From Candidatus Eisenbacteria bacterium (GTDB taxonomy: Bacteria; Orphanbacterota; Orphanbacteria; Orphanbacterales; Orphanbacteraceae), in assembly GCA_016867715.1 (NCBI GenBank), contig VGIW01000011.1:1-56032 (forward strand): a DNA stretch of 56,032 bases. Reading direction: 5' to 3'. The translations under genes were made by a program, and so were the position numbers. Positions 9,908 to 12,292 of this stretch are shown in pieces. Each line of letters starts with the position of its first letter. Position 1 is the first letter of the stretch. The notes beneath the pieces were generated by a model. It was not told where the DNA came from and made no database searches. It saw only the letters and a program-made list of their open reading frames with translations.

Positions 9908-10813
9908 ATGAAACGCTTCTTGTTTGTTTCGGCCGCCGCCCTGTGCGCGGCGGGCTCCGCTGGCTCCGCGCCGGTCGGGCTCCGCTCGATGCTTGTCGAT
10001 CCGGGGGTCGCCGCTTCCGGAATGGGATACGCGTACACGGCGGTCGCCGATGACGCGAGCGCGCTCTATTGGAACCCGGCGGGGCTCGTGCTCGGCGCCG
10101 AAGGGTACGATCTTCTTCTCGCGCACACCGAGTGGTTCGTCGAGCATCGGATGGAGTATGCGGTCGTCGCCTGGAATCGGGGCGCCGATGCGCTTGCCGC
10201 GGGGATCAGCGGGCTCTACGTCGGCGGGATCGAGCGGCGGGACGAGAATCCGACGCTGGAACCTCTCGGCGACTTCGGCGCGTACGACATCGTTGTTTCT
10301 CTCGCCTATGCGCGGGCATGGGGTCCGCTTCGGGCCGGTCTCGCCGCGAAGCCGTTCTACTCGAAGATCGACCGGGTGAGCGCGCACGGCGTGGCGGCGG
10401 ATCTCGGCCTTCAGGCGGACACGCCGATCGAGAACCTCACGATCGGCGGGGCGATCGCGAACTTTGGGAACGAGCCCTATTATGTGGAAGAGAGGTTCTC
10501 GCTCCCGCTCGATCTTCGAGGCGGCGCCGCCTATCGGATTCCGCTTCCCGCGGAGTCGGGCGAGCTTCTCGTTTCCGCGGAGGTTCGAAAGTCGAGGGAC
10601 GACGACGCGCGCACGCATTTCGGCGGGGATCTCCGCCTCGCGAGCGGGATCTCGCTCCGCTTCGGCTACAAATGGGGCTACGAGGAAGAAGACTACGCGT
10701 TCGGCATCGGGATCGCGCGCGGGTTCTACTCGATCCAGTACGCTCTGGTCCCCTTCCAGTCCGATTTCGGGAACGTCCATCGCTTCGCGCTCGGCCTGCA
10801 CAGGGACAAGTAG
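9908..10813 (+). CDS. PorV/PorQ-type outer-membrane protein
   Basis: A 301-residue protein with a signal peptide (cleavage near residue 20). It starts its mature part with the PorV/UPF0164 signature, in which an early Gly-Met-Gly-Tyr-Ala-x-Thr-Ala-Val-Ala-Asp-Asp stretch is followed by ALYWNPAGL. The rest alternates short beta strands with turns, as in a FadL-like barrel. PorV-type proteins help export or anchor proteins that carry type IX-like C-terminal domains, and the gene just upstream ends in such a domain. The ATG at 9908 has GGAG eight bases upstream. Function in secretion is inferred from family and context. Confidence 0.8.
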   Translation: MKRFLFVSAAALCAAGSAGSAPVGLRSMLVDPGVAASGMGYAYTAVADDASALYWNPAGLVLGAEGYDLLLAHTEWFVEHRMEYAVVAWNRGADALAAGISGLYVGGIERRDENPTLEPLGDFGAYDIVVSLAYARAWGPLRAGLAAKPFYSKIDRVSAHGVAADLGLQADTPIENLTIGGAIANFGNEPYYVEERFSLPLDLRGGAAYRIPLPAESGELLVSAEVRKSRDDDARTHFGGDLRLASGISLRFGYKWGYEEEDYAFGIGIARGFYSIQYALVPFQSDFGNVHRFALGLHRDK

Positions 10814-10923
10814 GCGGATTCCTGCATCCGCCGGACAATTCGGTACCTCAATTCGGTACCTGATACCTCATTCCTGAGATACCCCATTTCTGACAAGTAG
10901 ACAGATTCCTGAATTCGGTACCT
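10805..10923 (+). repeat. Short direct repeats downstream of the PorV-like gene
   Basis: The last codons of the PorV-like gene and the following bases (10805-10824, GACAAGTAGGCGGATTCCTG) recur 87 bp downstream at 10892-10911 with two mismatches. AATTCGGTACCT occurs three times (10837-10848, 10850-10861, 10912-10923), the first two almost in tandem. A 7-bp hairpin GGCGGAT/ATCCGCC lies directly on the stop codon (10813-10832). The stretch looks like a local duplication or repeat array with a GGTACCTGA core. Confidence 0.6.
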
Positions 10924-10938
10924 GACACCGTACCTGAC

Positions 10939-11397
10939 GCCACCACGGCGGGTGGCGGCCACGGGGCGTTGGGCCACTAACGCTTGTCGCTCCCACGGTC
11001 GCGACAAGCCCAAGTGGCCCATGCGCCCCTCCCACTCGCGCGCAGCGACAGCGAGCACGGCAGCGGGCGGATGGCCGACACGACTGAGCCGGGGCTCCCC
11101 GTCGCGAAGAGCGACGGGGTGGCGAGGAAGCTCCTTCGCGCATGCGGCGCGAAGGAGTGACCCGCCGTCCGACGACTGAGCCACGCGCGGGTGGCGGCGG
11201 CAGGCATCCGCGAGAAGCGCAGCCACCGAGGCTCGGCGAATTCAACCACTCGTCCCATAGGCGCGACCGAGGCTGCCGAGGGAGTCCCCGGAGCGCGAAG
11301 CGCGGAGGGGGAGCATCGAGCGGACAGCCGCCGACAGGACCCGCGCGTCTGGGAACGTCATCCCGGCGGGCCGTGGCCGCCACCCGCGCGTGGTGGC
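10939..11397. other. 459-bp highly folded element with terminal inverted repeats (candidate structured RNA or MITE-like element)
   Basis: The ends, 10939-10964 and 11371-11397, are inverted repeats that match except for about one base (GCCACCACG at one edge, GGCGGCCACGG at the other). Inside are strong stems: GGGGCG/CGCCCC, GGGCCACT/AGTGGCCC and GCTTGTCGC/GCGACAAGC stacked in one hairpin (10963-11029, 23 pairs); CCCCGTCGC/GCGACGGGG around GAAGA (11097-11119); and CTCCTTCGCGC/GCGCGAAGGAG around ATGCG (11131-11157). CGACTGAGCC occurs twice (at about 11080 and 11173). No frame here reads as a credible protein. It could be a large non-coding RNA closed by an end-to-end stem or a non-autonomous mobile element; the strand is undetermined. 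Confidence 0.5.
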
Positions 11398-11410
11398 GGG
11401 GGTTTCTGTA

Positions 11411-11438
11411 CCAGGTACAGGAACGATCCTGTACCTGG
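11411..11438. terminator. Perfect 12-bp palindrome (candidate bidirectional terminator or REP-like unit)
   Basis: CCAGGTACAGGA and TCCTGTACCTGG around an ACGA loop, ten bases past the stop of the convergent lpxH-like gene. It has no clear T run. The GTACC core is shared with the GGTACCT repeats at 10837-10923, so it may belong to a repeat family rather than being a dedicated terminator. Confidence 0.45.
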
Positions 11439-11448
11439 CACAAGAGGC

Positions 11449-12234
11449 CTACTCCTCGAACCGCTTGAGCGTGATCGCGCCGCCCGTCATCTCCGCGAAG
11501 GTGAACGCCTCGATCCAGTCGCCGAGGATCACGCACTCCCCCTCGTCGTAACGGAAGTGTTCGGCGAAGTGGATGTGCCCGAGGATGACGCAGTCGAACC
11601 CCTCTCGAAACTTCCGGCGGACCGCGTCCTCGAGTGTTCGGTTCAGGATGAACTTCTTGCGGCTCGTGTGCGCGCGGCTCACGCGCGAAGCCCATCGCGC
11701 GAGCGGGATGCCGATGTCCGGATGAATCCAATGATACGCGCGGATCGCGGCTGGATTTCGGACGATGCGGCGGAGCAGGCGATAGCCGGGATCATGCCCG
11801 GCGGCCAGGTCGTCTCCGTGCGTGAGGTAGATGCGCTTCCCCTGGAGGCGGAGATCGATCGGCCGGTGGAAGACCGAGATCCCGATCGTCTCGCGGAAGA
11901 AACGGCCGATCCAATAGTCGTGGTTCCCCGCGAGATAGCGCACGTCGACCCCGGCGCGCGCGAGCTCCGCGAGCTCCCGAAGGACGAGGACGGGGACTCT
12001 GGGGAGCACTTCGGCATACTCGAACCAGAAGTCGAAGAGATCCCCCGCGATGTAAAGGATCCGCGCCCGCTCGCGGACGTGCCGGAGGAAGCGAAGGAAC
12101 CTCTCGATTCGCGCTCGCTCCTCGCTCTCCCGGCCCGCGCCGAAATGGGCGTCCGCGACGAAGAAGACCGGATCGTCGCGCCGTTCGGCCGGCGCCGAGG
12201 AGCGCAAATCGTTCGCGGATTGCATGCCCGGCAT
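11449..12234 (-). CDS. lpxH: UDP-2,3-diacylglucosamine diphosphatase-like metallophosphoesterase
   Basis: A calcineurin-like phosphoesterase of about 261 residues. The metal-ligand motifs occur in family order: DAH, GDLFDFW, GNHDYW, HGDD and GHIH. The GDLFDFW/GNHDYW wording is typical of LpxH, which cleaves UDP-2,3-diacylglucosamine to lipid X in lipid A synthesis at the inner membrane. The start is uncertain: ATG codons at 12234 and 12225 lack a good ribosome binding site, and an in-frame start at 12261 is also possible. The gene diverges from the coiled-coil/HtrA pair and ends next to a strong palindrome. Confidence 0.8.
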   Translation of the reverse strand: MPGMQSANDLRSSAPAERRDDPVFFVADAHFGAGRESEERARIERFLRFLRHVRERARILYIAGDLFDFWFEYAEVLPRVPVLVLRELAELARAGVDVRYLAGNHDYWIGRFFRETIGISVFHRPIDLRLQGKRIYLTHGDDLAAGHDPGYRLLRRIVRNPAAIRAYHWIHPDIGIPLARWASRVSRAHTSRKKFILNRTLEDAVRRKFREGFDCVILGHIHFAEHFRYDEGECVILGDWIEAFTFAEMTGGAITLKRFEE

Positions 12235-12292
12235 GGTAGCATCCGCGTCGGAAGCGGGCAAACGGAAAGCCCCTACGCCGAGGGAGAGAAAG

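Follow-up and report, generated by a model that had tools for sequence, protein, structure and literature searches.

The 459-bp folded stretch at positions 10939-11397 of the window (the whole 56,032-nucleotide stretch of DNA analyzed here) is a mosaic in which dispersed intergenic hairpin modules are nested. Its pieces occur in other orders at about 40 places in the same genome, and one of them, module B, belongs to a family of structured units detected in 17 genomes of 13 families, mostly in multiple copies. A sequence-only reading of this locus had described a single element closed by inverted repeats of 26-27 bp, either a large structured RNA or a miniature inverted-repeat transposable element (MITE).

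A nested mosaic of dispersed hairpin modules

A nucleotide search of the genome carrying the window (G000; 3.51 Mb, 172 contigs) with the 459-bp stretch returned 69 matching segments, spread over about 40 places. The full arrangement occurs once, and the next longest match covers positions 223-432 of the query at 89%. We examined approximately 5 kb around each of these places and annotated the modules by single-sequence nhmmer. Modules A, B (in a long and a short form), E, C, and D, together with a common palindrome, recur in varied order and orientation and are often nested. Because the 459-bp whole is unique and its pieces occur in other combinations elsewhere, the notion of a single element was rejected; the copy structure rules out both one transposon and one RNA spanning the 459 bp. 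The earlier leaning toward a mobile element was right insofar as the pieces are multi-copy, intergenic, and turning over between two species, but the MITE with terminal repeats did not stand, the ends being two facing units.

These ends do pair almost perfectly, as had been noted: 10939-10964 is the reverse complement of 11371-11397 at 96% (26/27, one gap), with the ungapped blocks I2 and I3 recovered within them. The 26-27-bp “closing” repeat pairs one intact E-type left end with a second copy of that end, truncated and opposite in orientation; the end sequence also stands alone at eight other places in G000. RNA folding of 10930-11410 yielded -296.3 kcal/mol, compared with -246.0 ± 7.2 for shuffled sequences (n = 100; z = -6.94; 0/100 as low), and the internal hairpins are present as well: I4 (21-nt arms 10970-10990/11001-11021, 86%), two within module A, and the stems that module B forms. 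Folded intergenic stretches with extreme z-scores can, accordingly, be stacked repeats rather than RNA genes.

The left arm of the inverted repeat (10939-10964, +) comprises the outer stem and the left end of an E-type hairpin unit, CGGGTGGCGGCCACGG. This unit, of the GGGTGR...RCAGGACCC family, extends over 10949-11170 (+; boundaries by eye, right end approximate) and is interrupted twice, by a hairpin in its left half and by module A in its 3' motif. The inserted hairpin (10970-11021, corresponding to I4) has the core CTTGTCGCTC...GCGACAAG and resembles the core hairpin of another repeat of this genome, denoted F. Module A (11078-11175, +), with its two hairpins, lies within the AGGACCC part of the E-type unit, as it does in other E2 and B units; 20 near full-length copies were identified in the 81 sequences scanned. 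The duplicated sequence of the earlier reading, CGACTGAGCC, stands at 11081 and 11173 and nowhere else in the window; it starts module A and recurs directly after it. Module B (11188-11343, +) is a complete unit of the structure-conserved family in its long form, with extra internal hairpins, and scores 54.3 bits (E = 3e-11, filters off) with the covariance model R2. An E-type left end, inverted and truncated (11362-11397, -; weak match at 11367-11386, -), forms the right arm of the inverted repeat. Intact E units at L009, L028, and L029 score 42.5-43.7 bits with model R1, and the segment 10936-11045 is matched twice, at 97-98%, in the sister genome G001.

With gene calls from a crude custom open reading frame (ORF) caller, used throughout for orientation and placement, the repeat places of G000 lie between convergent, tandem, and divergent genes in 10, 18, and 4 cases, respectively, against a background of 33, 77, and 19; no enrichment at gene 3' ends is visible in these calls.

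A structure-defined family across genomes

The family to which module B belongs has the base motif GGGTG(R)...(R)CAGGACCC. From the outside in, the unit consists of a base stem GGGT/ACCC, a left G-R facing a right R-C-AGG, a variable stem, and a variable tip, with a total length of approximately 70-130 bp. An AGG-like bulge is frequent, and a GCGCAG/GCGAGCA internal loop is shared by several lineages. The purine-purine mismatch at the base covaries: it is G.A in 47 and A.G in 46 of the 104 distinct units (93/104), with G.G in five, A.A in two, and other combinations in four (loci numbered 200 and up, excluding viral contigs other than L268). This covarying pair is a sharp and testable recognition signature for seeking a mobilizing enzyme. 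Kink-turn and attC readings of the base motif, weighed by eye, were set aside.

The stems are maintained by compensatory change. Alignment A1 consists of the short B-type copies of G000 and G001 (20 distinct rows). On the fold predicted from a single copy, 97.3% of its cells are paired, compared with 27-39% in slid versions. In this alignment, 7 of the 26 pairs change on both sides, involving 23 cells against 6.8 in shuffled alignments, none of 500 of which reached 23. Compensatory changes affect 8/26 pairs when the E2 copies are added (A2) and 13/26 with further relatives (A3; 68 cells against 20.0 shuffled). Among the covariation measures, the sole opposing one is the pair-type count of A2, which is not above shuffles (478/500 reached the same). 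Alignments A1, A2, and A5 are plain MAFFT, and A3 and A4 were fitted to a model, which favors the structure of that model. Genome G137 alone provides three compensatory pairs, and in the E2 copy L211, one whole stem is swapped for another complementary stem, with the loops unchanged. The earlier reading had named a lack of homologues or compensatory changes as grounds for refutation; homologues and strong covariation exist.

The units are bounded at both ends. All 25 units read in G403 have both ends, as do, on inspection, all 21 in G400, where the strict pattern finds the left partner for 17 of the 21 motif matches and the other four have a variant or very close left end. Three G400 copies lack most of the interior and keep both ends. 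The units of G403 and G400 form the tips of longer palindromes, the arms of which are copy-specific: an exact arm match of at least 10 bp was found for 25/25 units of G403, against 15.7% of mismatched flanks, and for 13/21 units of G400, against 1.9%. Across units from several genomes, 9/37 have at least eight outward pairs, compared with 0.8% of 1288 mismatched flank pairs.

The nucleotide search of 60 genomes detected the core in G000 and G001 only, apart from two weak matches (E ~1e-3). Model R1 added four copies in G004, from another genus of the same family, and one in G035; those of G004 are 94-96% alike, a similarity that stops abruptly where largely different flanks begin. Among 386 genomes, model R2 had matches in six, including the newly found G136 and G137. 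The G137 loci are about 40% G+C, and their copies are GC-rich units, 81-97% alike, in AT-rich flanks. Model R3, run on 384 genomes around G137, had matches in 14, so that the three surveys combined reach 17 genomes in 13 families by assigned taxonomy labels. Surveys of more than 40 genomes scored a limited number of candidates per genome (11 in the R2 and R3 surveys), and their counts are accordingly lower bounds; model E-values come from a short calibration. G393, G407, and G409 are represented by one model match each, each folding with the base motif, and two loci of G421 (L289 and L301) with no unit by text pattern were omitted from later counts. The exact 11-base end motif GRCAGGACCCG occurs 226 times in ten genomes, compared with 11 times for its backwards control, with 58 matches in G403, 48 in G400, 28 in G137, and the lowest count, 9, in G274 and G413. 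The family is thus visible across 13 families by covariance model and, apart from the weak matches at E ~1e-3, within one genus only by sequence search. Only covariance modeling recognizes this family, which reaches tens of copies in G403 and similar genomes.

R3 had no match in 79 loci (L087-L165, 0.73 Mb), and searches with one unit each against plasmid and phage sequences yielded none. Pattern scans of viral contigs returned 20 contigs, of which one carries a unit (L268, E = 1.8e-7). The other 19 were judged chance matches: the match mostly overlaps an ORF, and one 769-aa ORF or its fragment explains many of them. The eight contigs tested with R2 other than L268 gave an E-value of 0.027 or worse or no match, and two stricter patterns matched no viral contig. 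The single unit of L268 (2918-3009; viral contig IMGVR_UViG_3300036760_000384) lies about 15 bp upstream of a gene start.

Mobile DNA hairpin, structured RNA, or known repeat

We lean, by a modest degree, toward the candidate reading of the family unit as a non-autonomous mobile DNA hairpin that behaves like a repetitive extragenic palindrome (REP) and lies outside the known REP classes. A DNA element is favored because units between tandem genes show no strand bias (24 in the same and 24 in the opposite orientation), no strand preference is apparent in the pairing, and Rfam has no match. We infer both the mobility step and an enzyme, which would act in trans. In such a scheme, the unit would move as a folded single DNA strand, and the enzyme would recognize the base motif and the internal loops, as REP-associated tyrosine transposases (RAYTs) do REPs. 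Landing in intergenic palindromes and in earlier copies would pile up hairpins inside hairpins, and the stems would be free to drift as long as pairing persists. The odds appear even that these units represent a structured intergenic mobile element of a new class, spread across families and mobilized in trans by an enzyme guided by shape more than by sequence. To the same extent, the only fixed parts of that class may be the base motif GGGT-G-R...R-C-AGG-ACCC, its R.R pair almost invariably G.A or A.G, and a few internal loops, with all stems and, in some hosts, the outer arms rewritten from copy to copy yet paired. Dispersed palindromes fill much of the non-coding space in some bacteria, and, as a rule, a described class is linked to one enzyme and to a tagged sequence.

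Several results weigh against a mobile DNA hairpin. The 20 Y1 loci, scanned with model R2, contain no unit (best E = 0.98), and neither these loci nor the 46 copies read in G403 and G400 revealed a mobilizing enzyme; none of the 46 is a long gene-bearing version. A target duplication of at least 4 bp flanks 2 of 15 clean units, compared with 4.8% of mismatched controls, and none is consistent. The sole clean insertion caught is that of an F repeat, which is not part of the B/E family, and the comparisons made caught no empty-versus-filled site for the family itself. None of the seven G137 copies has long palindromic arms, and palindromes are therefore not a universal insertion site. Nor do single G.T pairs tell DNA from RNA. 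Template-switch correction of palindromes could also produce compensatory change, with no selection involved.

The alternative of a structured RNA family is improbable, though it is the strongest of the rivals. In this case, the units would be transcribed, for example as mRNA 3' ends or small RNAs, the fold would bind a protein or protect or terminate transcripts, and the copies would form a regulon. The conserved internal loops, the covarying stems, and the covarying purine-purine pair are compatible with such a role, and so is placement: the units are intergenic, often within 40 bp of a stop codon (three in G403 and two in G400 were called inside split ORFs), those of G403 mostly start 26-39 bp after a stop codon, and some in G400 lie within A-run/T-run palindromes resembling bidirectional terminators. 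Against it, orientation to the host gene is even, at the 24:24 given above by crude gene calls, and there is no clear G.U/A.C asymmetry: 7 G.T versus 4 A.C/C.A single pairs were counted, and in a second count such pairs fell in both directions. Searches with Rfam 15 (4227 models) found no match in the window at gathering scores and none on a unit in five G000 loci (E up to 5) or in 12 unit-bearing loci of several genomes (E up to 1). Moreover, clean units with bounded ends in unique flanks, and their mosaic nesting, look like mobile DNA.

It is unlikely that the units are ordinary REPs, or the bacterial interspersed mosaic elements (BIMEs) built from them, moved by a known RAYT. The likeness is considerable, as REPs and BIMEs are likewise multi-copy, lie between genes, and form mosaic clusters of imperfect palindromes whose bulges are conserved. 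All six genomes tested have Y1 transposase genes, and true RAYT repeats occur in the same intergenic clusters of G000, including next to the element in the window. Nevertheless, with no unit at the 20 Y1 loci scanned, a RAYT was rejected as the mover of the B/E units. The units, at approximately 70-130 bp, are also larger than REPs, for which PMC3733652 gives 20-40 bp; they have the base motif GGGTGR/RCAGGACCC with its G.A pair, carry no GTAG or CGTC tag at the foot across the lineages read, are not found beside Y1 transposases, and have almost free interior stems. Hairpin structure matters for REP recognition, according to PMC8266576. CGTC-tagged REPs, described in PMC3733652 as palindromic repeats without a dedicated transposase, are similar in that respect and differ in size and base motif; CAGGACCC, GGGTGA, and GGGTCCTG are absent from the main text of that article. 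Our literature search found no description of the GGGTGR/RCAGGACCC motif, and, judging by titles and the beginnings of abstracts, none of the papers listed with the 11-base string appears to concern a bacterial repeat.

Other known systems are more distant. BOX of pneumococcus, ERIC, and RUP are modular or large palindromic intergenic repeats without a gene of their own and are known as lineage-restricted, as opposed to the 13 families covered here. The end hairpins of IS200/IS605 elements are folded single-strand ends recognized by an HUH enzyme and provide a functional analogy, although a Y1 (tnpA-type) gene was not found beside the units.

Passive repeats, spread via recombination or gene conversion, with palindromes kept by template switching, are slightly less probable still than ordinary REPs. 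Mosaic joints, length changes between direct repeats (at the L013/L184 site), and the interior-deleted copies of G400 fit such a process; the copies of AT-rich G137, clean single units that are 81-97% alike and sit in unique, unrelated flanks, do not, and the base motif is kept across 13 families, beyond what drift alone would retain. Finally, a single MITE or composite transposon can be dismissed with near certainty: its inverted ends of 26-27 bp are real, but the 459-bp whole is unique, the end sequence is single at eight other places, the same site has different content in G001, clean units show no consistent target duplication, and instead of fixed terminal inverted repeats, the units have outer arms that differ among copies yet stay complementary.

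Flanking repeats, neighboring genes, and turnover between two species

The GGTACC-type repeats reported on both sides of the stretch were found at 10842-10936 and 11407-11442. On the left, REP-like repeats of the AATTCGGTACCTGATACC type occupy 10838-10936 (+), with an nhmmer match at 10850-10872 and a further copy at about 10912-10936; on the right, the second REP-like repeat is a GTACCTG palindrome (11407-11442, I5). G000 encodes three Y1_Tnp (PF01797) genes. The one on contig C54 (L047:1985-2839; PF01797, E = 2e-8) is IS200-like (Y1/RAYT-type), and GGTACCTGATACC is present on both sides of it, at 1904 (+), 2913 (-), and 2937 (-). The GGTACC repeats are REPs, in a RAYT/REP pattern around this gene. 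Because they flank a Y1 gene elsewhere, the window holds two kinds of repeats, RAYT-type REPs outside and other modules inside; the GGTACC repeats, which the earlier reading had added to its mobile-element case, are a family separate from the inner modules. The second Y1 gene (L216:37-1000) has flanking repeats of its own, of the GGTTCGGTAGCCTGGCACCAGAACC type, unlike those of the C54 gene, and the third (L048) appears, in the region 2200-2400, to be interrupted by a C-like palindrome. Four loci of G001 (L166, L181, L186, and L202) carry another REP-like repeat, GTTAAGGAACCTGGTTC, within the same modules, in place of the GGTACCTGATACC of G000.

The stretch sits between two convergent genes. 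The upstream gene (9908-10813, +) had no match in a Pfam search and is kept in G001 beside a different mosaic. The downstream gene (11449-12261, -) encodes a calcineurin-like phosphoesterase (PF00149, E = 5e-10), presumably LpxH-like, with a 94%-identical counterpart in G001.

G001 is the only genome of the same genus that was compared with G000. The relatives of G000 are deep-subsurface and Candidatus Eisenbacteria metagenome-assembled genomes (MAGs). One MAG record, JAGUYC010000334.1, is labeled Gemmatimonadetes yet matches a genome placed in the genus of the window, and the family of that genus also holds a MAG labeled Candidatus Eisenbacteria (JAJRWB01).

Between the two sister species, the mosaics differ at shared intergenic sites. 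At the G001 counterpart of the window site, a B unit adjoins the phosphoesterase gene, and an inverted E2 unit follows the other gene. At the L030/L202 site, which is complete on both sides, the modules of G000 and G001 are wholly different.

The F repeat is about 330 bp long, with terminal inverted repeats of about 25 bp (TAGCCTGGACTATGCACGCG...), and was aligned from nine places in G000 (L029, L033, and L040-L046). Some copies contain an internal hairpin, and others lack it. In G001 (L171), an F repeat is inserted at the TA of a stop codon, and the same site is empty in G000 (L018, ~3850). A segment of about 890 bp in G000 (L013:500-1389) is absent from G001 (L184:2068-2080); it contains GGTACCTGATACC repeats and a reading frame that looks, by eye, methyltransferase-like. 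In G001, many of the repeat copies are found at contig ends (C60, C139, C231, C31, and C149, among others), so that the mosaics probably break the assembly; nesting is a possible reason for the breaks of such MAGs at these sites.
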